This document shows, in pieces, positions 695-51,168 of a stretch of DNA of 64,000 nt. Under the pieces are notes generated by a model, which made no database searches, was not told the DNA's origin, and saw only the letters and a list, made by a program, of their open reading frames with translations. Position numbers and translations under genes: made by a program. Location: the NCBI RefSeq assembly GCF_017916255.1, contig NZ_CP072827.1, positions 3,931,501 through 3,995,500 of the forward strand, given 5' to 3'. Source of the stretch: Streptomyces mobaraensis NBRC 13819 = DSM 40847. GTDB taxonomy: Bacteria > Actinomycetota > Actinomycetes > Streptomycetales > Streptomycetaceae. How positions within the stretch are numbered: position 1 is the first letter of the stretch; each line of letters opens with the position of its first letter.

Positions 695-802
695 CCCCGG
701 CACGGACCCGGCGTGACCGCCCCACCGCCCCCGGCAGGTCTCCCCGCCCCAACCCGCACCCGGTAGGCTGTCCCCCGCGCCGCGGCGGACAGCCCGGCGC
801 GG

Positions 803-889
803 GGAGGCTTGCCCGAGCGGCCTAAGGGAACGGTCTTGAAAACCGTCGTGGCAGCGATGTCACCGAGGGTTCAAATCCCTCAGCCTCCG
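803..889 (+). tRNA. tRNA-Ser (anticodon UGA)
   Basis: The acceptor stem GGAGGCT (803-809) pairs with AGCCTCC (882-888), with discriminator G889 and an encoded CCA at 890-892. The anticodon loop reads CTTGAAA, giving TGA. A long variable arm and the T-loop GGTTCAAATCC are visible, as expected for a class II serine tRNA. The last 60 bases are duplicated 7.2 kb downstream, so this gene is the attachment site of the island and stays intact at its left end. Confidence 0.97.
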
Positions 890-891
890 CC
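830..891 (+). repeat. left attachment-site repeat (attL) inside tRNA-Ser
   Basis: This 62-bp stretch covers the anticodon stem to the 3' end of tRNA-Ser(UGA). It is repeated without mismatch at 8023-8084. Duplication of a tRNA 3' half is the usual footprint of tyrosine-recombinase integration, and remains of such a recombinase lie at 1740-2306. Confidence 0.93.
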
Positions 892-913
892 AGGCCAGCA
901 TTGATGCAGGTCA

Positions 914-943
914 GAAGGGGTGTCCCGGTCCGGGGCGCCCCTT
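914..943 (+). terminator. hairpin downstream of tRNA-Ser on the island side
   Basis: AGGGGTGTCCCG and CGGGGCGCCCCT form a 12-bp stem with two G-U pairs and a 3-nt loop, followed by TTTC. It occupies the same place relative to the tRNA 3' end as the hairpin at 8112-8140 beyond the right repeat. The island appears to bring its own tRNA terminator. Confidence 0.6.
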
Positions 944-1000
944 TCGCGTTGGGGCCTTGTCTCACCTTGTGACGCCCGTTTCCCGGGTCTGATCAGCGCG

Positions 1001-1019
1001 TGCGGACCAGGCGCGGACC
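1001..1019. repeat. 19-bp island-end repeat, left copy (possible recombinase arm site)
   Basis: The sequence tgcggaccaggcgcggacc is identical to 7933-7951. It contains GCGGACC twice, spaced by 4 bp. Its placement just inside both ends of the island suggests a recombinase or directionality-factor arm site; this is inference. Confidence 0.45.
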
Positions 1020-1122
1020 AAGCAGGGGCGGCTCTGGCCTTGGGCGCCCTGGAGCTCCGACGACCCCAGTCCCCCTGTCTGGATGTGGTCGTTTTAAGCT
1101 CCAGAGAGGAGGGGGTGGAGCA

Positions 1123-1659
1123 ATGCACGCGCCGAATGTTGTTGGGGATTGGCAGGAGTACCAATCGGAGGAGTGGGCTGGTCTGCGAGTCCGAGTACAC
1201 GGTCTCAAGAAAGCTGTGCCACCACGTGGCCGCGATGACAAGGCCAAGGGGTTGTCGTACGTCAGCTTTCTCGTGACGTTCGAGAACCGCGGCACTGAGT
1301 ACTTCACTATCGATCTGTACTCGGGACTCAGGCACTTCGACGTCCGGGTGGGCCGGGACGGCCATGGTGCGTTCATTGATGAGTACGGGTCTGACGTCAT
1401 CAGAGGGTTCAACCTCTATCCCCAGCGGCGGGTGACGGCAACCCTCTACGTGGCGGCGACGGCCGCGAAGCTCAAGCAACTGGACATCCAGGTCAGCCCC
1501 GACATCGACGGAGACCCGGCGTTCGGATACGTCTGGGTCGGCGGACTCGGAGTGCACGAGGGGTCCACGCGTCTCGGGCGGCGCGCGTCAACGGCGCAGC
1601 CGAGTGTGGCCAACGAGGTAGAGCAGTTTTTGAAGCAAAGCGCCCCCGACGACGCCTGA
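1123..1659 (+). CDS. hypothetical island protein, beta-rich, 178 aa
   Basis: The ATG at 1123 is preceded by the strong site AGAGAGGAGGGGG, which decides the start over earlier in-frame codons. The product has no signal peptide and no membrane segment. Residues 40-130 alternate hydrophobic and polar residues in a beta-sandwich-like pattern (FLVTFENRGTEYFTIDLYSG), reminiscent of DUF4352/immunoglobulin-like folds, but I do not recognise a family with confidence. It reads opposite to the integrase remnant, lies between attL and that remnant, and seems monocistronic. It may be cargo or accessory; function unknown. Confidence 0.7.
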   Translation: MHAPNVVGDWQEYQSEEWAGLRVRVHGLKKAVPPRGRDDKAKGLSYVSFLVTFENRGTEYFTIDLYSGLRHFDVRVGRDGHGAFIDEYGSDVIRGFNLYPQRRVTATLYVAATAAKLKQLDIQVSPDIDGDPAFGYVWVGGLGVHEGSTRLGRRASTAQPSVANEVEQFLKQSAPDDA

Positions 1660-1739
1660 TCTCTGTCCGCAGCCAACGCAGAACTCCTCCTGAACCCACT
1701 GATGAGGTCCAGGAGGAGATTCGGTCGCCCGCAGGAAGA

Positions 1740-2306
1740 TCAATCCGCAGAGTTGAGAGCCCGGTCGATGAGCTGGTTCGCCTTCTGCTGGACGCCATTG
1801 ATGATCTTCGCGTAGAAGTGGTAGAGCACGGCGATGCTGTGGCCGGCTCGTCGGGCGACCTCCGCCGGTTCGACGCCGGCCTTGAGCCAGAGCGAGATGC
1901 CGGCGTGTCGGAGGGAGTACGGCACCTTGGCCAGAGGGGTTTTCAGCTCCTCCGGAGTGAGGACCTTCTCCCGGGCTGCCTCCCACAGGTCGCAGTACTC
2001 GGTTGAGCGGACCCGGCCACCATGAACGGCCCAGAAGAGTCGGCCGTCTGGAGCGACTCCGTGCGTCTTGATGTGCTCGCGGACCATCCGGACGAAGACC
2101 GGCGGGATGGGGACCGATCGCGTTGCTCGCCGGGCGCGTCGTTTAAGGCCGCGCTTCTCGTAGGACTTGCCGTCGTCGGTCCAGCCCGAACCAACCTCTG
2201 GACGGCTCTCTTCAAGGGCGGCCCGCTCACGCGGGCCGCCGCGCGCTGGCGGCCCGTGGCCGCCGCCGCTCCTGTCTGCCGCCCCGCTCCGGCGGCCCCC
2301 GTCCAC
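1740..2306 (-). pseudogene. truncated tyrosine recombinase (phage-type integrase), C-terminal catalytic part
   Basis: From about residue 28 the product matches the C-terminal half of actinobacterial site-specific integrases. It has the Arg box SLRHAGISLWL, the GHSIAVL box and the expected catalytic Tyr in HFYAK. The arm-binding and core-binding domains and the first catalytic Arg box (TGLRxGE type) are missing. The DNA upstream (about 2226-2700) shows no continuation in any frame. The residual ORF therefore lacks part of the active site and is very probably inactive. Its position near attL fits the integrase of the island. Confidence 0.82.
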
Positions 2307-2699
2307 TCAGCGCGCAATGCCAACCGAGCGCGACGACCAGGACCAGGAAGTTCCTCGTACGGCCCATCGCCAACACCATCAGGCCGACAGTGCCGAGGCC
2401 AGCCGTCCAGCCGCCGCGTCTGACATGTGCACCCCACAGCCCCGAACCGCCCGCCTCCCTGCTGTTGTCCGCCGTTCGCGCCAGCGCCCGCGATGGGCCG
2501 GGCGAGCATGCAACGCAACGGCCGGCGCGACACCGGCCGTGACGCAATGAATAGCGTGGCCGGCGTACGTGGGTGGTTGCTGGAGGCACACGTGGCGGGT
2601 GGTCGTCACAGTGCGGGCGCGCGGTGGCTGACTGGTGGGGGTGGCCGCCCACACAGGCGAGTGGTGGGTGGCCCGCAACTCCGAGGCGCGGCAGGGAGT
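2307..2699. other. gene-poor stretch between the integrase remnant and the serine hydrolase
   Basis: No convincing gene is seen. On the minus strand a 50-codon reading frame (2227-2379) starts with a hydrophobic run (NFLVLVVALGWHCAL), but it lacks a clear ribosome site and overlaps the integrase remnant. This stretch probably marks the deletion that removed the integrase N-terminus. Confidence 0.4.
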
Positions 2700-3728
2700 T
2701 CATTCCGACGAGATCGTCTTGAGGGCCAGAGCTCGCAGCGGTGCGAGGCGTACGCGGGCCGGGCCGTAATAGACGGCGTTCGTACAGATCACCAGGTAGC
2801 GCCCGGTCGAGGGGGCGAGGTACAGGCTGGTGCCGGTGAAGCCGTGGTGATACGCGACGGACCCGCCGGCGGCGAGAATCCACGACAGACCACGGTCGAG
2901 GCCCGGTTCGATCGGAGCGTGGGGGACCAGACTGGAACGGAGCCAGTCACCCAACGGGCCGCTCTCGTCGGCGGACAGCAGGGCTTGGGCGTAGGTGGCG
3001 AGGTCGGCCGGGGTGGAGAACACTCCGGCGTGACCGGCCACGCCTCCCATGAGCCCGGCGTTGTCGTCGTGAGCGGCACCCCAGATGCGCGGGGCGCCGG
3101 GAAGTCGCTGTTCGGTGGGGGCCACGCCGGAGGTACGGGCGACCGGGCCGTAGAACGTGCTGCGCATGCCGAGCCCGCCCCACATGTCGGCTGCCAGTTG
3201 GTCGAGGGGCCGGCGGTGAAGGTGGGTGAGGGCGAGGCCGAGGAGGATGTAGCCGCGGTTGATGTAGCGATGGGCGCCGGGGGTGTCCTCCAGCGGTTCG
3301 CGACACAAGAGCTCGTGCAGCGGCAGGTCCGCGCCACGGTAGTGGTCGAGCCGGGTGGAGGCGCGGAGGCCGGAAGTGTGAGTGATCAACTGCCGTACGC
3401 TGGCTTCCCCGCTGGGGGCTTCCCCGCTCATCACCGGAAGGCTGTCGCGGATGGGAGCGTCCAAGTCGATCAGCCCGTCCTGGACGGCCCGGCCGACGAG
3501 CGGCCAGGTGGCCACGACCTTCGTCAGCGACGCGATGTCGTAGACCGTGTGCACCGAGGGCGGCTGTGATCCGCACTCGGGAGCGACCACGCCGGCCACC
3601 ATGACCTCCTGGCCGTGACCGGCGGTCCCCGCGACGACGACACCGCCCGGACTCGCACCGTCGGCCACCACTTCTTGCAGCGTCTCCCCGAGGCGGGCGG
3701 TGTCGTCGGCGCTGAACGGTGCGGGCAT
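2700..3728 (-). CDS. serine hydrolase of the beta-lactamase / DD-peptidase (class C-like) family
   Basis: The 342-aa protein carries the three family motifs: S67-L-T-K70 (nucleophile and base), Y155-I-N157, and H295-G-F in place of KTG. No signal peptide is present, so it is predicted to be cytoplasmic, unlike penicillin-binding proteins. Relatives include esterases, D-amino-acid amidases and transesterases such as LovD-type enzymes. Its start abuts the stop of the MurA-like gene with no gap, so the two are co-transcribed and probably act in one pathway. Whether it hydrolyses a peptide, ester or amide cannot be told from sequence. Confidence 0.9.
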   Translation of the reverse strand: MPAPFSADDTARLGETLQEVVADGASPGGVVVAGTAGHGQEVMVAGVVAPECGSQPPSVHTVYDIASLTKVVATWPLVGRAVQDGLIDLDAPIRDSLPVMSGEAPSGEASVRQLITHTSGLRASTRLDHYRGADLPLHELLCREPLEDTPGAHRYINRGYILLGLALTHLHRRPLDQLAADMWGGLGMRSTFYGPVARTSGVAPTEQRLPGAPRIWGAAHDDNAGLMGGVAGHAGVFSTPADLATYAQALLSADESGPLGDWLRSSLVPHAPIEPGLDRGLSWILAAGGSVAYHHGFTGTSLYLAPSTGRYLVICTNAVYYGPARVRLAPLRALALKTISSE

Positions 3729-5021
3729 CTAGACCTCCGGTTCGATGGTGACCTCGGCGCCCAGCCTGGCCAGGTTCGGGAGCAGATGGCCGTAGCCGCG
3801 CCGCAAGTGGTGCAGACCCCGGATCGTAGAGGTGCCGTCGGCGGCCAGGGCGGCGATCAGCAGTGCCGCCACCGCGCGGATGTCGGCTGCCTGCACGTCT
3901 GCGGCGTGGAGCCGTCGGGGGCCGTGCAGGCGGATCATTGACCCCGTGACGGTGAGCTCCGCGCCGAAGGCCCGCAGCGGGACGACGTGAGTGTCCCTCC
4001 GGGGGTACACCCACTCACCGATCAACGAGGGCCCGGCGGCCTGGGTGAGTAGCGCTGCCAACTGCGGGGCACTGTCGGTGGGGAAGCCGGGATGCGGCCC
4101 GGTGGCGACCTCCACCCCGGACAGGGCCCTCACGAGCTGCACGCGGACGGTCTGGCCGTCGGCGGCGAGAGCGATGCCCGCGTGGGCAAGTGCGGTGATC
4201 AACCCGACGGGGAGGTGGTCGAGGGTGATGCCGTCCAGGTCCACGCACCCCCCGGTCGCGGCAACCGCCATGGCGACGGTGGCGGCCTCGATGCGGTCGC
4301 CCACGATCGCGAAGGTGCCGCCGTCGATCCGGTCACTCCCCGATACGTGTAGCCCCTCGACGTCCCAGTGGATCGCGACGCCCCGAACGGCGAGGAACCG
4401 ACAGGTCTCGATCACCTCGGGCTCGATGCTCGGGCTCGTGATCAACGAGGCACCCGGGATGCGTGCGGCCAGGAGCACCGCCGTCACCGTCGCTCCCAGA
4501 CTCGGCCCGTATGGGGTGTTCACGTCCACGGTGAAAGCACGCAGGCCGCGTCGCCCGGACAGGACCCGGAGCTCTGTCGGTGTCGAGACGACCTCTGCCC
4601 CGGCGGCCCGCATCGCCGCCAGATGGCGGTCGATCAACCGGGGACAGAACGCGTCACCACCGGGGTAGGGAAAGGTGACCTGCCCGGCACGGGCAAGGAC
4701 AGCGGATGCCAGGACGGCGGTGGTGCGGATCTGCCGGCCGAGTTCGTACGGAACCACCGGCCTCAGCGTCTCGGCCGGGCTGACCATGAATTGGTTGCGG
4801 TCGAACATGGCGCCGACACCGATGTGCCGGAGGATCTGGGCACAGACGCCGGTGTCCACGATGTCCGGCGCCCGCACCAGGACCAGCGGGGTATCGGCCA
4901 GGAGCGCTGCCGCGTACAGGTGAAGGGCGATGTTCTTGCTGCCCTGCACTGGATACCGGCCGGTCAGTGCTCGGTTTCCGGTGACTTTCACGAGACCGTC
5001 AGACGAGATGGTCATGGTCAC
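3729..5021 (-). CDS. MurA-like enolpyruvyl transferase with Asp at the fosfomycin-target position
   Basis: This is a 430-aa EPSP synthase/MurA fold protein of normal MurA length. K29-N30 matches the catalytic Lys-Asn of MurA, GFPTD (D316) matches the catalytic Asp, and R382 in DIRAVAALLIA matches the C-terminal Arg. The loop reads PGGD at 120-123, where E. coli MurA has PGGC (Cys115); Mycobacterium tuberculosis MurA also has Asp there and is fosfomycin-insensitive. The family adds enolpyruvate from PEP to UDP-GlcNAc, or to UMP in polyoxin/nikkomycin enzymes. It overlaps the upstream transferase gene by 4 bp and sits on a mobile island, so it is a paralogue and not the housekeeping copy. Its substrate is unknown. 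Confidence 0.9.
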   Translation of the reverse strand: MTMTISSDGLVKVTGNRALTGRYPVQGSKNIALHLYAAALLADTPLVLVRAPDIVDTGVCAQILRHIGVGAMFDRNQFMVSPAETLRPVVPYELGRQIRTTAVLASAVLARAGQVTFPYPGGDAFCPRLIDRHLAAMRAAGAEVVSTPTELRVLSGRRGLRAFTVDVNTPYGPSLGATVTAVLLAARIPGASLITSPSIEPEVIETCRFLAVRGVAIHWDVEGLHVSGSDRIDGGTFAIVGDRIEAATVAMAVAATGGCVDLDGITLDHLPVGLITALAHAGIALAADGQTVRVQLVRALSGVEVATGPHPGFPTDSAPQLAALLTQAAGPSLIGEWVYPRRDTHVVPLRAFGAELTVTGSMIRLHGPRRLHAADVQAADIRAVAALLIAALAADGTSTIRGLHHLRRGYGHLLPNLARLGAEVTIEPEV

Positions 5022-5746
5022 CTGACCCGTGACCCGGCAGGCAGGAAGCCGCCGATGTGGTTGTGGGGGTAGACCACACTGCGGGGGCCGATCAGTGTCC
5101 CCGGTGACAGCACTGTCCCGGCGGGCAATGCGACCTCGTCACCGATGACCGCACCGAATTTCGTCTGGCCGCTGCTGATCCGGCGCCCGTCCAGGGTGAC
5201 GGTGATTTCCTCGATCGCCGGTTCGGCGACCGGCCCGCGGTCGCAGCGCAGGCCGGTCGTGGAGCAGAAGGCTCCGAGGTTGACGCGGTACCCGACCACC
5301 GAGTCGCCGACGAAGCAGGGGTGCTTGGCGAAGACGTGTCCGGCCAGCAGGCTCCGGGTGATGTCCGCCCCGAACCCGATCCGGCAGCCGGGGCCGATCA
5401 CGGCGTAGTCCCGCACCAGAGCGCCGGCCCCGATGACCGCCCCGCAGCAGACCAGGACGGGGCCGACCACTTGGGCTCCGGCTTCGATACGTGCCCCCTC
5501 CTGCACGATGACGTCGCCCTGGCACAGGGCTCCGCTCTCGATCGTGCCGCCCCGGTCTGCGTCCAGGCCGCACGCGGTGGGGTCGTCCAGGTCCGCGACC
5601 ACGGCCGGCTTGACGTCGAACACGGTCTGGCAGCGTGCCAGCAGCCGGGCGAGGTAGGGGCTGAGCGCGTTGAGGTTGAGGTAGTAGCCCGTGCTGAGCC
5701 GCACGTCTTCCGCCGTCGCCGCGGAATCGGGAAGGTGCTGCTGCAT
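5018..5746 (-). CDS. left-handed beta-helix transferase, GlmU C-terminal-like
   Basis: Residues about 80-235 form hexapeptide repeats ([LIV]-G-x4 pattern: IESGALCQGDVIVQEGARIEAGAQV and onward). The tail TKFGAVIGDEVALPAGTVLSPGTLIG resembles the acetyltransferase domain of archaeal-type bifunctional GlmU. The nucleotidyltransferase half (GxGTRM motif) is absent; residues 1-75 are different and unassigned. A sugar-1-phosphate N-acyltransferase acting before the MurA-like enzyme is plausible. The gene ends by ATGA overlap with the MurA-like gene, which implies translational coupling. The substrate is inference only. Confidence 0.85.
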   Translation of the reverse strand: MQQHLPDSAATAEDVRLSTGYYLNLNALSPYLARLLARCQTVFDVKPAVVADLDDPTACGLDADRGGTIESGALCQGDVIVQEGARIEAGAQVVGPVLVCCGAVIGAGALVRDYAVIGPGCRIGFGADITRSLLAGHVFAKHPCFVGDSVVGYRVNLGAFCSTTGLRCDRGPVAEPAIEEITVTLDGRRISSGQTKFGAVIGDEVALPAGTVLSPGTLIGPRSVVYPHNHIGGFLPAGSRVR

Positions 5747-5876
5747 GGGGATGCCTCCATAGCGTCGAAGGGCCGATGTGCAGGAAGTGCGCGCGCCAGG
5801 GGCGCGACCGGAAGTGGAGGGACGCTGAGGGCCCCGGCACCCCGAAGCGGGTTCGCCGCCGGGTACCGGAGCCGGA

Positions 5877-6065
5877 TCAAGCGGGGGTGTCAGTGACCGG
5901 GTCGGTGTCCGGGGCCACGACCGCGAAGCCCGGGTGCAAGGACTCGGCGTTCATGTCCCGATCGACGATCACCGCCAGGAGGGCGAAGGCGGTAGCCATC
6001 GCGCCCAGCCAGACGGCCACGGCCCCGGCTTCCGGGTCGATTCGACGCCGGTAGGCGCTCATCAC
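5877..6065 (-). CDS. small single-span membrane protein, 62 aa
   Basis: A short basic N-terminus (MMSAYRRR) is followed by one hydrophobic span (AVAVWLGAMATAFALLAVIV) and an acidic C-terminal tail. Its ATG overlaps the stop of the upstream gene (ATGA at 6062-6065), which supports it being a real coupled gene. About 130 bp separates it from the beta-helix transferase gene. I do not recognise a named family; it could be an anchor or partner for the operon enzymes. Confidence 0.65.
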   Translation of the reverse strand: MMSAYRRRIDPEAGAVAVWLGAMATAFALLAVIVDRDMNAESLHPGFAVVAPDTDPVTDTPA

Positions 6066-6451
6066 CGCGACCCCTCCGATCGGGCCCGTTCACGAGCGGC
6101 CATGGCTCGTTCGACCTGGAGGCTCACCGCATACAACTGGCCCGGTTCGAGGACCAGTTCCGTGCGAACCGCGCCTCCGTCACGAAGACGCACCTCAACC
6201 GCGAACCGGGTCTCCTCCGTCGCGTGGTCGTATCGGGCGTCCCGTTGCATCAGGGCCACGCGATCGACCATGGGGGCGCCACCGGACTCATGGCGCCCCT
6301 GGTCAGCAGCCGCGCTGTGCGTCACTTCATCCAGGGGAATACCGGTCCTGGCTGTTCCTGTGCCATGCATCTTGGGATCACCGTCTCTTCTGCTCGCCAG
6401 GCCCGCCGAACAGGGACGAACCGGCGGCCGGGCTGTGGGCATGGGTGTCAT
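6062..6451 (-). CDS. hypothetical cytoplasmic protein, first gene of the island operon
   Basis: The best-structured part is the C-terminal 65 residues (VDRVALMQRDARYDH ... ELVLEPGQLYAVSLQVERAMAARERAR), a compact mixed beta/helix region. Four ATG codons (6451, 6442, 6370, 6271) could be the start and none has a convincing Shine-Dalgarno site; 6370 has a weak GAAGAG. The upstream 126 bp is shared with the divergent regulator gene, so the promoters are probably back to back. Function unknown. Confidence 0.6.
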   Translation of the reverse strand: MTPMPTARPPVRPCSAGLASRRDGDPKMHGTGTARTGIPLDEVTHSAAADQGRHESGGAPMVDRVALMQRDARYDHATEETRFAVEVRLRDGGAVRTELVLEPGQLYAVSLQVERAMAARERARSEGSR

Positions 6452-6577
6452 GCAGAGGCTTGGACGATCAGTCGGCGATGCCAGTTAAGGGCGGGGCGAG
6501 AAGCGCGGTAACCCCACGCAGGGGGCACCCATGATGGGTACATTCCGTGGGGGGTACTACCAACTCAGGGGGTAGGC

Positions 6578-7909
6578 ATGGAACTTCCGGCGTCACCGGC
6601 AGCGCTTCCACCAGCACTTCTGAATGATCGGCGTGTCGCCGAAGCGCTGGCCCGCCGTGATGTCGGCGCCTTGTTCGCACTCGCTCACGAGGCGGGCATC
6701 AGTTTCAACCGCATCAGCGAGGCGTGCGGCATCCGTGCCGAACGCGTGAGCCAGATAGCTAGGGGGCATGGGACCGTCACGTCCCTTTCCGGCCTGGAGC
6801 GGATCGCTGACGGGCTCCGGATCGCCGGCCGGTGTTTAGGCTTGGCCGAGAGGCCGTGGGAGAGCGCGGGTACGCGAACTCCCCAACAGCATCGAGAAGA
6901 TGGAGAAGATCCGATGAAGCGCCGCGATGTAGTCCGCGGCGCGCTCGCTGCCGGTCTGGCAGGTTCCGGGCTCGCCGCTTTGACCACCACCCGCCACGAC
7001 ATCGACGCCGCTCTGGCCGCCGACCATACGTCGTCCGATCTCGGTTTCTGGGAGAGCACCGCCGAGCGGTACGGATACGGCTACCACGGCCAGGCGCCGG
7101 CCGACGTGCTGGCGAACCTCGCCGGGGACTTCGGCGAGCTGAGGGCACTTCTGGCTCGACCGCAGACCGTCAAAGGCCGGGCCACGCTGTGCTACGTGAC
7201 CGGCCAGATGGCGGGCATGGTCGCGATCGTCCTGCATGATCTCGGCCAGGACCGCGAAGCCCATCGATGGTTCCGTACGGCCGGCCGGGCTGCCGAGCAG
7301 TCGGGGGACAACCTCCTGCACGCGTGGGTCCTCGGGCGCGAGGCGATGGTGCCTCTCAACTACGGGGCTCCACAGGCGGCCGCACACCTGGCCGAACAAG
7401 CCCGGCACCTGGCGGGAGGCAAACCCAGCGCAGCCGCTGCATTGGCCTCGGCCGTTGCTTCGCGCGCTTACGCCAGCGGCGGCCACCGGGAGAAGGCCCT
7501 CCGCGCGGTGGCCGACGTCGAAACTCTTGCGGAGCGGCTCACGCCCCAGCAACATGCCGATACCTGGTTCGGCTACCCGATGCAGAAGCACCACGTCCAC
7601 ATGAGCCAGGCCCTGACTCTGCTCGGGGAGACCGACCGGGCATACGAGACCCAGGGACAGGCGCTTGAGCTGTCGCGCATGCCGTCACACATGACCCGAG
7701 CGCTGATCGCCATTGATCAGGCGGCCTGCCGGGCCCACGACGGCGACCGAGCCGAAGCGGCGCACATCGCCGCCCAGGCGTACGGTGGTCTGCCGACCTC
7801 CTATCAGACCGGTCTCACCCAGACTCGGGCGCTCGCCCTGTACCGGACGCTCCCCAGGGATACCCCCGGTCGCCAACAGCTCGCGGGTGCGCTGGGAGTC
7901 GCCGGCTGA
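6578..7909 (+). CDS. XRE-type HTH regulator with C-terminal TPR-like repeats
   Basis: The 443-aa protein has an N-terminal helix-turn-helix at about residues 36-85 (ISFNRISEACGIRAERVSQI). Helical repeats of TPR type follow from about residue 150. A linker at 113-137 (MKRRDVVRGALAAGLAGSG) looks like a twin-arginine leader but is internal, a common quirk of this Streptomyces regulator group. The start is fixed by CAGGGGGTAGGC just upstream. It is divergent from the island operon and is the obvious candidate to control it, perhaps with a small ligand or peptide bound by the TPR part. Confidence 0.85.
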   Translation: MELPASPAALPPALLNDRRVAEALARRDVGALFALAHEAGISFNRISEACGIRAERVSQIARGHGTVTSLSGLERIADGLRIAGRCLGLAERPWESAGTRTPQQHREDGEDPMKRRDVVRGALAAGLAGSGLAALTTTRHDIDAALAADHTSSDLGFWESTAERYGYGYHGQAPADVLANLAGDFGELRALLARPQTVKGRATLCYVTGQMAGMVAIVLHDLGQDREAHRWFRTAGRAAEQSGDNLLHAWVLGREAMVPLNYGAPQAAAHLAEQARHLAGGKPSAAAALASAVASRAYASGGHREKALRAVADVETLAERLTPQQHADTWFGYPMQKHHVHMSQALTLLGETDRAYETQGQALELSRMPSHMTRALIAIDQAACRAHDGDRAEAAHIAAQAYGGLPTSYQTGLTQTRALALYRTLPRDTPGRQQLAGALGVAG

Positions 7910-7932
7910 CCCGGGGGGGCGTTCCCGGAGCT

Positions 7933-7951
7933 TGCGGACCAGGCGCGGACC
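7933..7951. repeat. 19-bp island-end repeat, right copy
   Basis: Identical to 1001-1019, and 72 bp inside the right attachment repeat. Confidence 0.45.
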
Positions 7952-8022
7952 GGGGAGCAGCCCGAGGGCCGAGGAGGACAGTCTCTCCGCAGGTCAGGGC
8001 GGTACGCGGTCTGATCTGCGGC

Positions 8023-8084
8023 ACGGTCTTGAAAACCGTCGTGGCAGCGATGTCACCGAGGGTTCAAATCCCTCAGCCTCCGCC
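8023..8084 (+). repeat. right attachment-site repeat (attR), 3' fragment of tRNA-Ser
   Basis: This is a perfect 62-bp copy of 830-891. The 5' half of the tRNA (acceptor 5' strand and D-arm) is missing, so it is not a functional tRNA. Flanking sequence on the right is the original chromosomal context of the tRNA 3' end. Confidence 0.93.
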
Positions 8085-8111
8085 GAGGTCAGCGGTGATG
8101 CGCCGGCCGGA

Positions 8112-8140
8112 AGGGGTGCCGACCTCAGGGCGGCACCCCT
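8112..8140. terminator. hairpin between attR and the FnIII-protein gene
   Basis: AGGGGTGCCG (8112-8121) pairs perfectly with CGGCACCCCT (8131-8140) around a 9-nt loop. It was probably the original tRNA-Ser terminator and now lies just after the stop of the leftward gene at 8150, so it may serve that gene as well. Confidence 0.6.
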
Positions 8141-8149
8141 GGTGCATTT

Positions 8150-9856
8150 CTAGCGCTTTTCCACGCTTGCCAGGTTGCTGCGGCCGGATTCCACGCCGTC
8201 CTTGGAGACGGCGACCACGTAGTAGGTCAGGCGGTCGCGGCCGGTGTTCGTGTCCAGGAATTCCAGTCGCCCGTCACCCGGGTTCCGGAGGGTGCCGGCG
8301 AGCGTGAAGGCGGGGCCTCCGTGCTCCTTCCGGACGTAGACGCGGAAGGACGGGGCGTTGTCGAGGGAGCGCCAGTACAGCTTCACGCCCTGGGGGGTGT
8401 CGTAGGCCTCCAGGGCGAACGGGGGCTGGGGCGCTCCCCGGAATTCGGGGGTGAAGCGGACGGTCTGCGCGGAGCGCTTTCCTTCCCGCTCGTTGACGGC
8501 CACCGCGCTGAGGGCGTACTCGTACGTGGTGCCGTCGACCGTGGGGTCGTCGGTGTACGAGAGCACGCTGCTGCCGCTCTTTCCGATGGCCTTCCAGTCG
8601 TGCTGGGCATCCCGGCGCCAAATGCGGTAGGCGATCACGTGGTCCTCGTAGGGGCTCTTGTCCCAGGAGAGTTTGGCGCGCCGGCCGTCGATGCCCGTCA
8701 CCTTGAGACCGGTGGGAATTCCCGGCTCGCCGGGGCGGCGGATCTCAGGGGTGAAGGAGACGGGCGCGGAGCGTTCCGACCGCGTCTTCTCCGCGACCGC
8801 CACGACGGCGTACTCGTACGCGGTGCCGTCGTCCTTGGGGGTGTCGATGGCCGAGGTTCCGGCGGTCGTGGCGGTGAGTTCCCAGTCGTGGCCGGCGGCG
8901 CGGCGCCAGACCTGGTACTCGCGCACGTCCGGCTCGGTGTTCTTCGCCCAGGAGAGTTCGGCCTGCTTGCCGTTGGCCGAGACCACCTTGAGCCCGGCGG
9001 GGGCGGACGGTGCGGCGGGGGCGGGCGGGGTGGGCTTGGGCGTGGTGACGCGCACCTCGGCGGAGCGGGCGGAGACGTTGCCGGCCTTGTCGACGGCGGT
9101 GACGGCGTAGGCGTAGCCGCTGCCGTCCTTCGCCGGGCGGTCGGTGAGGGACGTGCGCGTCACCGGCTTCGCCCCGCTGACGGTCTGCCACGGCCCGGGC
9201 TTGCCGGTGGCCGGGAGGGCGCGGCGGTGGACCTGGTAGCCGGCCAGGTCGAGTTCGCTGTTCCCGGCCCAGGTCACGGTCGCTTTGCCGGACGCGGTGT
9301 CGTAGGCGGCCCGCGTTCCGGCCGGGGCCAGCGGCTTGACCTTGTCGTCGGGTTTGCCGGTGACCGGCGCATAGGTGAATTTCACGGCGGCCGGGCCCGT
9401 GACATTCGCGTACTCGACGCGGAGAGTGTGTTTCCCCTGGGGGACGGTGATCCGGACGGACTTCTTCCGAATTCCCTTCGCGCTCTTCCAGAGGTCGATC
9501 GCGCGGGTTTTGTCCACGTAGACGCGGACGCCGCCCTGGATTTCCGTGGCGAGGGTGAAGGGGCCTCCGGAGCCGAAGTCACGGGTGGTCGTCCAGCGCA
9601 CGCCGAAGTTGTCGCGCGGCAGGCCCGCCGGGGCGCCGTTGCCGTAGTTCTCGGCTATCGCGTGGTCGCAGCCGGTCTTCTTCGGCTTGCCCGCGAACGT
9701 GGTGCCGGCGAAGAACTCGGCCTTCCAGACGCCGGGAGCGCAACCGGAAACGGGTGCCGCGGAAGCGGGACCGGTCGGCACCGTCAATCCCAGTGCCGCG
9801 GAGGCGATGACGAGCGTGGTCGCCGATGCGCGACGTACGGCGTTTCTTCCGTGCAT
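8150..9856 (-). CDS. secreted PA14/fibronectin type III repeat protein
   Basis: The start at 9856 has AAGGA 12 nt upstream and gives a normal signal peptide (charged start, hydrophobic core, cleavage near ASAAPV at about residue 34). Residues 40-160 resemble a PA14 domain (WKAEFFAG ... GGVRVYVDKT). Three to four FnIII domains follow, each with the repeated YEYAV/YAYAV...A strand pattern. The protein ends without a membrane anchor or sorting signal, so it is likely released. The family is carbohydrate- or wall-binding; no catalytic domain is visible. Confidence 0.9.
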   Translation of the reverse strand: MHGRNAVRRASATTLVIASAALGLTVPTGPASAAPVSGCAPGVWKAEFFAGTTFAGKPKKTGCDHAIAENYGNGAPAGLPRDNFGVRWTTTRDFGSGGPFTLATEIQGGVRVYVDKTRAIDLWKSAKGIRKKSVRITVPQGKHTLRVEYANVTGPAAVKFTYAPVTGKPDDKVKPLAPAGTRAAYDTASGKATVTWAGNSELDLAGYQVHRRALPATGKPGPWQTVSGAKPVTRTSLTDRPAKDGSGYAYAVTAVDKAGNVSARSAEVRVTTPKPTPPAPAAPSAPAGLKVVSANGKQAELSWAKNTEPDVREYQVWRRAAGHDWELTATTAGTSAIDTPKDDGTAYEYAVVAVAEKTRSERSAPVSFTPEIRRPGEPGIPTGLKVTGIDGRRAKLSWDKSPYEDHVIAYRIWRRDAQHDWKAIGKSGSSVLSYTDDPTVDGTTYEYALSAVAVNEREGKRSAQTVRFTPEFRGAPQPPFALEAYDTPQGVKLYWRSLDNAPSFRVYVRKEHGGPAFTLAGTLRNPGDGRLEFLDTNTGRDRLTYYVVAVSKDGVESGRSNLASVEKR

Positions 9857-11127: not shown

Positions 11128-11631
11128 ATGGCGAAGCGGTCGATCACGGCGGAGGTGCCGGCGGTCTCGCGGATGTCCGACCCGGTGGAGCTCGTGCCCG
11201 AGATGGCGGAGGTGTCGGCGGCGCTGTTCAAGGCCGTGGGGAACCGGACGGTGCCGCGGCGGACGATCGGACTGGTGCACCTGCGGGCCGGTCAGATCGT
11301 CGGCAACACGTACCTGACCATGCTGCACACCGACCTGCTGCGCAAGGCCGACGAGACCGAGGAGCGGATCACGGCGGTGTCCTCGTGGCAGGACGCGCCC
11401 TGCTTCACCGCGGCGGAGCGGGCCGCGCTGGCCCTGGTCGAGGCGGTGTTCCAGCCGTCGGCGTGGGGCGAGCGGGTGTCCGACGAGCTGTACGCGCAGG
11501 TGGCCGAGCACTATGACGACAAGGCGCTGGCCACCCTGACGATCGCGATCGGCCAGGTCGGGTTCTTCGTCCCGCTGGCCCTCGTCGCCAAGCCGGTGCC
11601 CGGACGGACGTTCTCCGAGCCATGGAAGTAG
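11128..11631 (+). CDS. AhpD/carboxymuconolactone decarboxylase-like protein lacking both redox cysteines
   Basis: GAGGAGG at 11113-11119 sets the ATG at 11128 (8-nt spacing) and gives 167 aa. The helical core LVHLRAGQIVGNTYLTMLHTDLLRKAD aligns with the AhpD-type motif where CxxC-x-x-H is expected. Here the two Cys positions are Asn60 and Leu63, while His67 remains. The usual peroxidase relay is therefore impossible, and a structural or other role is likely. It is preceded by a 260-bp non-coding stretch and stands alone. Confidence 0.82.
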   Translation: MAKRSITAEVPAVSRMSDPVELVPEMAEVSAALFKAVGNRTVPRRTIGLVHLRAGQIVGNTYLTMLHTDLLRKADETEERITAVSSWQDAPCFTAAERAALALVEAVFQPSAWGERVSDELYAQVAEHYDDKALATLTIAIGQVGFFVPLALVAKPVPGRTFSEPWK

Positions 11632-11691
11632 GGGCAGTAGGGGCAGTAGGGGCAGTAGGGGAAGAAGGGGAAGTAAGGGCAGCAGGGGCGG
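11627..11691. repeat. 9-bp tandem repeat (AGTAGGGGC-like)
   Basis: Four clean and about three degenerate copies of a 9-bp unit begin at the stop codon of the AhpD-like gene. No coding role is evident on either strand. Confidence 0.75.
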
Positions 11692-48843: not shown

Positions 48844-51168
48844 TCAGCCGGCCGATGGCTCCTTCGTGTTCGCCGGTTCCTCCGGTGGCGTCTCCGACGG
48901 TCCCTTCGCCGGTCCCTTCTCCAGGCCCTTCGCCAGCCCCGGCGGCAGCGCTCCCGTGTGCACCACGCCCAGCCGCTGTGTGGCCCGCGTGAGCGCCACG
49001 TACAGGTCGTTCACCCCCATCCGGCCCGGCTCGACCACGAACACCGTGTCGAACTCCAGCCCCTTGGCCTGCCGGGGATCCAGGAGGACGACCGGTCGCG
49101 TCAGGTCCGGCGCCGGGCCGGCGGAGGCGTCCGGGAGGGCGGACGACAGGGCGTCGAGGAGGCCCCGGGGCGCGATCACCGCGAGCCGTCCCTCCGGATG
49201 CTCGGCGAGGGTCGCCGCCACGGCCTCCGCGACCGTCCCGGCAGGCTGGTCCGTCCGGTGCGCCCAGGGGCGTACGCCGGTGGAACGGACGGAACGCGGC
49301 GGCCGGAACCCCGGATTCCCAGAGGCTCGGACCACCTCCGCCGCCACCTCCATGATCTCCGCGGGCGTACGGTAGTTGACGCCCAGCCGGACGTGCTCCC
49401 AGCGGTCGCCGACGTACGGCGCGAGGGCCGCCTCCCACGAGCCGCAGCCGCCCGGTTCGGCGGTCTGGGCCGGGTCGCCGACCAGGGTCATGGACCGGGT
49501 CGGGCAGCGGCGCATCAGCAGCCGCCAGGTCATCGGGGACAGCTCCTGCGCCTCGTCCACGATGATGTGGCCGAACGCCCAGGTGCGGTCGGCCGCGGCG
49601 CGTTCGGCGGCGCTGCGGTGGTCGGCCTCCTCCTGGCGCTCCGCGAGCCGCTCCGCGTCCACCACGTCGTGCGCGGCCAGCACCTCGGAGTCCTCGTCCT
49701 CCAGGTCCTCGAACTCCTGGGTGCGGGAGCCGTACGACATGTCGAGCACGCCCTGCGCGTAGGCGATTCGTTCCTGCCGGGCGGCCTCGGCCGCGGCTTG
49801 GGCGGCCGAGTCGTCCTCGCCGAGCAGCTCGGCGGCCTCGTCCAGCAGCGGTACGTCGGCCGGCGTCCACGGCCCGGCGTCCCGCCGGATGGCGTCGGCG
49901 TCCGCCGGGGGCAGATGGCAGGGGTCGGAGAGGAAGTCCGCCACCAGCCGGTGCGGGGTGAGCGCCGGCCACAACGCGTCGATGGCCGCGTGCACTTCGG
50001 GAGCGGCGGCGACGGCCTTGCCGAGCTGGGCGGCGTCGTCGGGGCCGAGGAGGTTCGGGCCCCCGTAGGGATCGGCCCCGATGCGGTCGACGAGTTGCGC
50101 GGTGAGGGCGTCGATCACGGCGAACGCGAAGGTGGGGCGCGCGAGGTTGTGCGGCAGCCGCGTGGCGCGCGCCCGGTCGCGGGCCGTCCGCACGATCGCT
50201 TCGTCGAGCACCAGGTCGCCGTCGTCGTGCGGGATCACGATCTCCGGGTCGGGCAGCGTCTGCCGGTCCCGGACGTACGCGGCCAGCGCGTCCGCCATCG
50301 CCGCGGCGCCCTTGACCTCGGCCGCCCGCGGGGTGTCGGTGCCGGTGGCCGTGGTGCCGGGGAACAGTTCGGCGGGCGTGGCGAGCAGCACCCCGGTCTC
50401 GCCGAGGGAGGGCAGCACCTCGCCGATGTAGCCGAGGAACGCCGGGTTGGGGCCGACGATCAGCACGGCGCGGCGGGCCAGTTGCTCGCGGTGGGCGTAG
50501 AGCAGGTACGCGGCGCGGTGCAGCGCGACGACCGTCTTCCCCGTACCGGGGCCGCCCTCCACCACCATGACGCCGCGGTGCGGGGCGCGGATGACGCGGT
50601 CCTGCTCCGCCTGGATCGTCTGCACGATGTCGTGCATCCGCCCGGTGCGGGCGGCGTCCAGCGCGGCGAGGAGGACGGCGTCCGCGTCGCTGCCCTCCAG
50701 GCCGGTGCGCTCGGGGTCGGTGAGGTCGAGGATCTCGTCGTGGAGGGCGGTGACGCGGCGTCCCTCGGTGCTGATGTGGCGCCTGCGGCGCAGGCCCATG
50801 GGCGTGTGGCCCGTCGCCAGGTAGAACGGCCGGGCGACGTCGGCCCGCCAGTCGATGACGAGGGGTGTCCGGTCGGCGTCGTCGCGGCGGATGCCGATCC
50901 GGCCGATGTGGTGGTCGCGGCCGTCGCGGAACGCCAGCCGGCCGAAGCAGAGACCGTTCTCCCCCGCGTTGAACGCGGCCAGCAGCCCCGACCGCTCGGC
51001 GACCAGCACATCGCGCTCCAGCCGTGCCTGGAAGGTGCCGCCACCCGGCGAGGCGAGGGCGGCGTTCATCCCGGCTTCGGCCTCGTCGCGGAGTTCCGCG
51101 AGGCGTGTGTGGAGGTTGTCGATGAATTCCTGTTCGTTGCGCAATTCCTGGGCCGACGCGTTTGACAC
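48844..51168 (-). CDS. HelD-like RNA polymerase-associated SF1 ATPase (HelR-type)
   Basis: GGGAG sets the GTG at 51168 (774 aa). The N-terminal coiled arm (ELRNEQEFIDNLHTRLAELRDEAE) precedes Walker A EGGPGTGKT (204-212) and Walker B IIVDEAQELS. Late SF1 motifs include GVNYRTP, KGLEFDTVFV and YVALTRATQRL. The layout matches UvrD-like HelD proteins, which pull nucleic acid out of stalled RNA polymerase; in Streptomyces the HelR member dislodges rifamycins. The AT-rich upstream region with a palindrome at 51206-51238 suggests induction. Whether it confers rifamycin tolerance is inference. Confidence 0.88.
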   Translation of the reverse strand: MSNASAQELRNEQEFIDNLHTRLAELRDEAEAGMNAALASPGGGTFQARLERDVLVAERSGLLAAFNAGENGLCFGRLAFRDGRDHHIGRIGIRRDDADRTPLVIDWRADVARPFYLATGHTPMGLRRRRHISTEGRRVTALHDEILDLTDPERTGLEGSDADAVLLAALDAARTGRMHDIVQTIQAEQDRVIRAPHRGVMVVEGGPGTGKTVVALHRAAYLLYAHREQLARRAVLIVGPNPAFLGYIGEVLPSLGETGVLLATPAELFPGTTATGTDTPRAAEVKGAAAMADALAAYVRDRQTLPDPEIVIPHDDGDLVLDEAIVRTARDRARATRLPHNLARPTFAFAVIDALTAQLVDRIGADPYGGPNLLGPDDAAQLGKAVAAAPEVHAAIDALWPALTPHRLVADFLSDPCHLPPADADAIRRDAGPWTPADVPLLDEAAELLGEDDSAAQAAAEAARQERIAYAQGVLDMSYGSRTQEFEDLEDEDSEVLAAHDVVDAERLAERQEEADHRSAAERAAADRTWAFGHIIVDEAQELSPMTWRLLMRRCPTRSMTLVGDPAQTAEPGGCGSWEAALAPYVGDRWEHVRLGVNYRTPAEIMEVAAEVVRASGNPGFRPPRSVRSTGVRPWAHRTDQPAGTVAEAVAATLAEHPEGRLAVIAPRGLLDALSSALPDASAGPAPDLTRPVVLLDPRQAKGLEFDTVFVVEPGRMGVNDLYVALTRATQRLGVVHTGALPPGLAKGLEKGPAKGPSETPPEEPANTKEPSAG

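Follow-up and report, generated by a model that had tools for sequence, protein, structure and literature searches.

Within 64,000 nucleotides of Streptomyces mobaraensis NBRC 13819 = DSM 40847 (contig NZ_CP072827.1, positions 3,931,501 to 3,995,500; this whole stretch is called the window here), a short leftward operon encodes a left-handed beta-helix acyltransferase (LbH), a relative of the cell-wall enzyme MurA and a serine hydrolase, and it raises the question of what these three enzymes could make together. The operon is a member of a cassette family conserved in actinomycetes. We tentatively favour the reading, which we consider quite possible, that the cassette is an accessory one that moves between actinomycetes and duplicates, under its own regulation, the opening steps towards uridine diphosphate (UDP)-muramic acid, with a soluble muramic-type product likelier than a wall polymer. 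What the computation shows directly is which genes are present and in what order, which catalytic residues are kept, the selection acting on the genes, their mobility and the switching of MurB.

Distribution of the Cassette

A genome contig collection holding one genome per species (84,980 species) was scanned with an LbH alignment, which returned 42 loci, 36 of them actinobacterial (Streptomyces, Kitasatospora, Embleya, Actinacidiphila, Streptacidiphilus, Streptosporangium, Microtetraspora and Allosalinactinospora), while the six remaining loci (L061-L066), 27-50% identical over parts of LbH, are without the cassette, the MurA match of L061 lying 6.3 kb off on the opposite strand. The window, L012-L017, L019, L021 and the 36 actinobacterial loci make up a set of 45 loci chosen by LbH alone, from which L018, L020, L022 and L023 (apparent counterparts of L028, L032, L051 and L055), the weak L024 and the plasmid match H2 (equal to H1) were left out. 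Because L012, L034 and L036 are nearly identical to one another, not all of the 45 loci are independent. Neighbours are named on the basis of tblastn with annotated proteins.

All three core genes were matched in 39 of the 45 loci, in the same order and on the same strand in all 39, with median gaps of 5 and -1 bp between them, and because the loci had been chosen by LbH alone, this recurrence goes beyond chance. The three families therefore do keep company elsewhere, which leaves standing an original prediction made from the window sequence, and the regulator of the XRE/TPR type that it placed beside them is the usual companion (33/45 loci match one of two query regulators; L027, among the 12 loci without such a match, has a different protein with helix-turn-helix (HTH) and tetratricopeptide repeat (TPR) character adjoining the cassette). 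The loci short of three core genes are L016, L042, L057, L058, L060 and L047, where the contig ends. Gene by gene, MurA was matched in 40 loci, the hydrolase in 39 and MurB, the least constant, in 24 (any match); the LbH count is uninformative, since it served for selection. Large linear Streptomyces plasmids carry the annotated order regulator - LbH - MurA - serine hydrolase - MurB. In a sample of the genus (295 genomes, own genome included), LbH was found in eight genomes, one of them weakly at 32% identity, and a cassette-like MurA in 11, of which one (G108) is a 39% outgroup and four, G108 included, gave no LbH match.

The MurA-Like Enzyme and MurB

The original prediction of a beta-helix transferase, a MurA paralogue and an SxxK hydrolase agrees with the Pfam matches to Hexapep, EPSP_synthase and Beta-lactamase (Table 1), SxxK being SLTK in this case. 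Among NCBI models, the MurA-like protein exceeds the cut-off of the subfamily model PRK09369 (317.1 bits, cut-off 297). Roles in catalysis are those we take the tested positions of MurA, MurB and GlmU to have. In the full-length MurA-like proteins, a count of 36 that excludes broken MurAs, the catalytic K22, N23, R91, R120, R331 and R397 are kept in 36/36 and D305 in 35/36, and D123, S162, G164, E188, D231, E234, H299, T304, D369 and R371 are likewise kept in all 36. The position of Cys115 holds Asp in every one of these proteins, while the two other MurA homologues of the genome, 32% and 29% identical to the window protein, have Cys there.

The original prediction that no MurB follows in the window stands, because tblastn of 701-8700 with 21 MurB protein queries gave a best E of only 0.032; a degraded MurB was rejected on the same result. 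It had further taken the missing MurB to set the operon apart from the peptidoglycan route, and this part is not supported, since many relatives have MurB directly following (near full-length in 21/45 loci) and MurB is missing from several clades, that of the window among them. MurB presence was mapped on a quick tree of 32 loci, namely all those in which LbH, MurA and hydrolase are full-length except L034 and L036, the root being a midpoint and not inferred; nearly full MurB is present in 17 loci and not in 15, with the broken copies of L029 and L038 and the remnant of L030 scored absent. The trait changes at least nine times, with seven changes forced by well-supported branches, against a mean of 10.9 for shuffled labels. 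Copies with MurB are found to either side of the midpoint root, which makes several losses a likelier history than several gains, and the window copy has probably lost its MurB.

The MurB of L012, the only one of the 21 that was scanned, exceeds the cut-off of the equivalog PRK13903 (282.4 bits, cut-off 231), and S229, R159, N233 and E325 are kept in 21/21 and Y190 in 20/21. The genome has one MurB homologue, 43% identical to a cassette MurB, and we infer that a chromosomal MurB may stand in for that of the cassette. The nine or more changes fit such a host enzyme, and a replaceable chromosomal MurB would explain the switching and put the MurA-like product close to enolpyruvyl-UDP-N-acetylglucosamine (enolpyruvyl-UDP-GlcNAc).

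These results bear on the strongest rival, that the cassette supplies ordinary UDP-N-acetylmuramic acid (UDP-MurNAc) for peptidoglycan through a fosfomycin-insensitive MurA, switched by the regulator under cell-wall stress, which we regard as unlikely, if deserving of attention. The feedback of UDP-MurNAc presumably acts through Cys115, so that the Asp-type cassette MurA would escape it. In Mycobacteria and Chlamydia, natural fosfomycin resistance goes with a Cys-to-Asp MurA according to a passage in one source (PMC6801904), fosfomycin is produced by Streptomyces according to a passage in another (PMC9346081), and the many full-length MurB copies are what such a bypass would call for. Nevertheless, the hydrolase, for which a bypass would have no need, is almost as constant as MurA and far more so than MurB, which argues against a plain MurA and MurB bypass, as do the low identity to the other MurA homologues of the genome and a score below the murA equivalog cut-off. 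If this rival were true, the cassette would offer a natural and transferable means of escaping inhibition of the first enzyme committed to the wall.

The Hydrolase and a Second Gene Cluster

The best NCBIfam model of the hydrolase is PBP4B (PRK03642), at 53.1 bits well below its cut-off of 385. A fold search for a specific identity was set aside as non-discriminating, since it returned the whole class-C beta-lactamase fold (FmtA-like, EstG, EstB, ClbP, LovD and DD-peptidases). The hydrolase carries the motifs SLTK (in 26/26 cassette rows; SNTK in YfeW), YIN and HHGFTGT, and by alignment it shares TE, HD..A, GG..GHAG.F and H.G.TGT with E. coli YfeW. It had been called cytoplasmic; with no signal peptide visible by eye, this location is probable, and the SxxK part of that description is borne out by SLTK. 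The yfeW gene of E. coli lies in murQ-murP-yfeW, and we take AmiE to have the same fold as YfeW. The B. subtilis gene amiE (formerly ybbE) is described in a section of PMC5061867 as that of the MurNAc-L-alanine amidase in the murQ cluster.

In the 295 Streptomyces genomes, 54 had a hydrolase match at E 1e-40 or better. Among the matches of at least 60% identity there are copies without a full MurA, with MurA remnants nearby in L094, L100 and L101 and no other cassette gene near in L095-L099; the solitary hydrolases of L097 (9190-10293), L098 (8877-9938) and L099 (8950-10020) apparently occupy one shared chromosomal place, as judged by eye.

A second setting, cluster 2, was sampled in 46 loci fetched of the 49 listed hydrolase matches at 34-40% identity. 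Its complete five-gene set, in the order divergent MurA - metallophosphoesterase - dCTP-deaminase-like (in tandem) - glycosyltransferase family 4 (GT4) - hydrolase, is present in 29/46 loci, pieces of it in four and a hydrolase match only in 13. The example L119 (6203-12590) and 28 more loci among L118-L163 have a Cys-type MurA, and the cluster usually comes after a HATPase protein. There are hence two settings in which the hydrolase family is paired with a MurA-like enzyme, besides the copies that stand alone. In the MurA tree, the cassette proteins and those of cluster 2 each form a clade of their own with full support. The two clades fall to the same side of the midpoint branch (93/92), on long branches; from these sequences, a distant tie between the two groups is neither shown nor excluded.

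Cluster 2 is also relevant to a second rival, in which the MurA-like enzyme, like NikO, would place enolpyruvate onto a nucleotide such as uridine monophosphate (UMP) as the entry to a nucleoside-type natural product. NikO itself, a relative of MurA, uses UMP according to a passage in PMC6801904, the uridine-side residues P121 and L124 of the cassette enzyme are altered, the hydrolase family is paired in cluster 2 with dCTP-deaminase-like and phosphoesterase genes, and the position of both MurA groups in the tree would suit this route. We nevertheless consider it improbable, since the MurA-like sequence scores 96.2 bits to NikO (4fqd), far below the 226.5 bits to true MurA (3sg1), and a MurB partner makes little sense for such chemistry. 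Furthermore, E188, H299 and T304, residues of UDP-GlcNAc MurAs, are kept in 36/36 cassette proteins and changed in 29/29 of the second divergent family, that of cluster 2, and for this reason UMP is not favoured as acceptor. Of the short pathway that the original prediction outlined, the conserved three-enzyme unit and an enolpyruvyl ether on an amino-sugar nucleotide fit our results, but the UMP acceptor offered there as an alternative is less favoured.

The LbH Acyltransferase

LbH (242 amino acids) matches the C-terminal parts of GlmU profiles and stays below the cut-offs of Arch_glmU (121.1 bits, cut-off 292.1) and TIGR01173 (28 bits, 366.85); a profile scan found no N-terminal uridyltransferase domain of GlmU in it. 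The nearest solved structure is ST0452, the best match by both sequence and fold, but the fold match adds little beyond the sequence match because the predicted model is poor (mean predicted local distance difference test score, pLDDT, of 67, poor from about residue 165 on). In an alignment of 42 LbH rows, two of which (L042 and L059) are partly out of frame, the GlmU positions R333, H363, N377 and K392 are kept in 42, 41, 40 and 40 rows, respectively.

Selection and Decay

The ratio of nonsynonymous to synonymous substitution (dN/dS, by NG86) of the window genes versus L025/L026 is 0.31/0.23 for LbH, 0.26/0.26 for MurA, 0.19/0.15 for the hydrolase and 0.11/0.12 for the regulator, other pairs giving 0.11-0.44. 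Together with the kept catalytic residues, these values led us to reject inactive paralogues, the outcome that would have undone the original prediction, and to judge from sequence, the window MurA-like enzyme and its partners look like active enzymes. Broken or partial cassettes are common (L015, L021, L043, L059, L094, L100, L101 and L102), so the cassette decays readily. A last rival, that the genes are function-less paralogues carried as decaying passengers on mobile elements, is suggested by these copies (in L021 it is MurA that is affected), by L057, L058 and L060 and by the truncated integrase of the window, but is very improbable given the low dN/dS of the three enzymes and the regulator against two relatives and the catalytic residues kept in intact copies.

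Proposed Pathway

In the parallel pathway that we favour, every reaction and acceptor, the order of steps and the end product are our own inference. To hypothesize, LbH would N-acylate an amino sugar in phosphate or nucleotide form, after which the MurA-like enzyme would add an enolpyruvyl ether from phosphoenolpyruvate, MurB, either that of the cassette or that of the host where the gene is lost, would reduce it to a lactyl ether, and the YfeW/AmiE-like hydrolase would cleave or form an amide or ester bond at the carboxyl group of the lactyl ether. Since the unit contains no gene for a ligase, lipid transfer or export, its product is likelier to be a soluble metabolite or precursor pool of the muramic-acid type than a wall polymer. 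It is conceivable, and we advance it with somewhat more reserve, that the exchanged cassette turns the first peptidoglycan precursor steps into a specialised-metabolite pathway for a new class of muramic-acid-derived nucleotides or sugars; the YfeW/AmiE-like hydrolase would then serve for tailoring, in the cassette as in the second enolpyruvyl pathway, that of cluster 2.

Several observations weigh against this pathway. The MurA-like protein scores below the murA equivalog TIGR01072 (315.2 bits, cut-off 392.7) and P121 and L124 are changed, L124 to Arg in 34/36, and its site may therefore differ on the side of the nucleotide. Only 4/11 tested GlmU positions are kept in LbH (K351, Y366, N386, Y387 and S405 are changed, and A423 and R440 fall in gaps), and its acceptor may thus not be glucosamine 1-phosphate. 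In MurB, K217 is alignment-dependent, with R in 20/21 in one alignment and no conserved K or R in the other, and Y158 is His in 6/21. The hydrolase is 26% identical to YfeW, so a lactyl amide as its substrate is argued from a remote relative, and AmiE is described as extracellular or periplasmic. Finally, cassette-type MurA occurs without LbH in genomes G166 and G187 (L104, L105) and, broken, in G063 (L102), and the hydrolase is solitary in L095-L099, so the parts of the cassette are not strictly interdependent.

If the proposal is true, a cell-wall pathway has been duplicated, rewired and placed on mobile DNA, giving a testable new natural-product class, and a large, poorly understood beta-lactamase-fold hydrolase family would be tied to enolpyruvyl/lactyl ether chemistry in two separate clusters. 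We recognised no description of the cassette or of cluster 2 in the literature searched, which comprised open-licence papers only and is no proof of novelty.

Genomic Context

Coordinates of all features are collected in Table 1.

Table 1. Features of the tRNA-Ser island and its cassette, in window coordinates.
Feature	Coordinates	Strand	Basis
YfeW/PBP4B-like serine hydrolase	2700..3728	-	PF00144 (Beta-lactamase) 4.9e-41
MurA-like enolpyruvyl transferase, Asp at Cys115 position	3729..5021	-	Pfam EPSP_synthase 9.8e-46
LbH acyltransferase, like archaeal GlmU C-terminal part	5018..5746	-	PF00132 (Hexapep) 5.5e-10
Open reading frame (ORF), 62 amino acids	5877..6065	-	apparent one-pass membrane protein (by eye)
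ORF, 129 amino acids	6062..6451	-	no family match
Divergent promoter/operator region	6452..6577		between regulator and operon, 126 bp
NsdA-family (XRE/TPR-type) regulator	6578..7909	+	NF053720 112.8 bits, cut-off 75
Truncated integrase (C-terminal part)	1740..2306	-	phrog_1 E 1.2e-10, residues 62-186, profile positions 337-453 of 611
Left att repeat, within tRNA-Ser(TGA) 803-892	827..891	+	65-bp direct repeat; ARAGORN for tRNA
Right att repeat, partial copy of tRNA-Ser 3' part	8020..8084	+	98% identical to 827-891, spacing 7193

The original prediction of a compact five-gene operon opposite a single regulator is right in its 4-bp overlaps (5018-5021 and 6062-6065) and the abutting ends of the hydrolase and MurA-like genes (3728/3729), but a 130-bp gap (5747-5876) splits the two small upstream ORFs from the three enzyme genes. 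Neither small ORF gave a family match in Pfam, NCBIfam or PHROG scans. The 62-residue product is 62-63% identical in the two closest relatives, L025 and L026, and the 129-residue product 67-73%, the latter also being partly kept in L027 and L028 (36-44%). HTH and TPR matches of the regulator in Pfam are below cut-off. The operator region is identical at 118/126 bases (94%) in L025 and 116/126 (92%) in L026; it has no inverted repeats of at least 8 in the window copy, and one 12-nucleotide palindrome (83%) in L025 and L026.

The window copy sits in a 7.2-kb tRNA-Ser island, and the repeats that bound it, with an integrase that is itself truncated, confirm the mobile island supposed at the outset. 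It can be aligned over 5.4 kb to L025 (86%) and 5.7 kb to L026 (83%). The same tRNA-Ser adjoins the cassette there, as a complete gene in L026 and as only a flank and a 39-bp piece in L025, with the cassette upstream of the tRNA in both and downstream in the window; because the L026 gene beyond the tRNA matches window 11142-11632, L026 and the window share a chromosomal address. The short loci of eight genus relatives (L107, L108, L110, L111, L113, L115-L117) have the tRNA and no island match, and that of a ninth, L109, matches the integrase region only. This stretch (genome G002, L109 1718-2131) is 70% identical to window 1794-2210 and also adjoins this tRNA-Ser, which may therefore be a site for other elements as well. 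In two Microtetraspora loci (L035 14144-14224, L038 13645-13725), the cassette ends at most 20 bp from a tRNA-Cys gene, which points to other tRNA genes as further insertion sites.

Genes for an FxLD methyltransferase, a PIG-L deacetylase, an M15 peptidase and a phosphotransferase accompany the cassette on large linear plasmids (L012 517-8667, L014 17562-24693) and beside the broken cassette of G180 (L101 10553-19000), in arrangements that differ between records, and peptide-deformylase-like genes lie near it in L045 (14134-14682), L049 (14346-14750), L057 (8700-9242) and L012 (8745-9311). Neighbouring genes for peptide deformylase, PIG-L, FxLD and RmlD-like proteins were considered but not taken as pathway members, as most loci are without them in the fetched flanks. 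In L016 (8793-13243), where MurA and hydrolase are missing, a homologue of LbH lies some 2.6 kb from a PIG-L deacetylase gene, with an IS110 transposase gene between; the LbH homologue directly precedes a gene annotated as NUDIX hydrolase, a 40% match to part of a plasmid protein annotated as GNAT. Anti-phage defence was rejected, with 0 PADLOC matches at E 0.01 for 10 proteins (eight from the window, one MurB and one GT4). The window also holds a tRNA-SeC gene (50910-51005).

Comparison with Known Systems

With the MurA and MurB steps of peptidoglycan synthesis, the cassette has in common both enzyme families with their catalytic residues, including in L012 a MurB at equivalog level. It differs in the Asp for Cys115, in the altered uridine-side residues and in a MurB that is often absent, and it forms one accessory, mobile operon with LbH and the hydrolase beside a regulator. 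NikO of nikkomycin synthesis is likewise a MurA relative, recruited outside peptidoglycan as far as a passage in PMC6801904 goes; the cassette MurA is nearer to true MurA by score, and whereas NikO keeps Cys130 and is inactivated by fosfomycin (same passage), the cassette enzyme has Asp. Compared with archaeal-type GlmU (ST0452), LbH matches the C-terminal domain best, is without the nucleotidyltransferase domain and has several acceptor-site residues changed. Cluster 2 of Streptomyces shares the pairing of the hydrolase family with a MurA-like enzyme, but its MurA is divergent and Cys-type, and its further genes encode a phosphoesterase, two dCTP-deaminase-like proteins and a GT4. Finally, the operons murQ-murP-yfeW of E. 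coli and murQRP-amiE-nagZ-ybbC of B. subtilis resemble the cassette in placing a YfeW-like protein beside muramic-acid enzymes; those operons degrade MurNAc, whereas the cassette has synthetic enzymes and a hydrolase with no signal peptide by eye.

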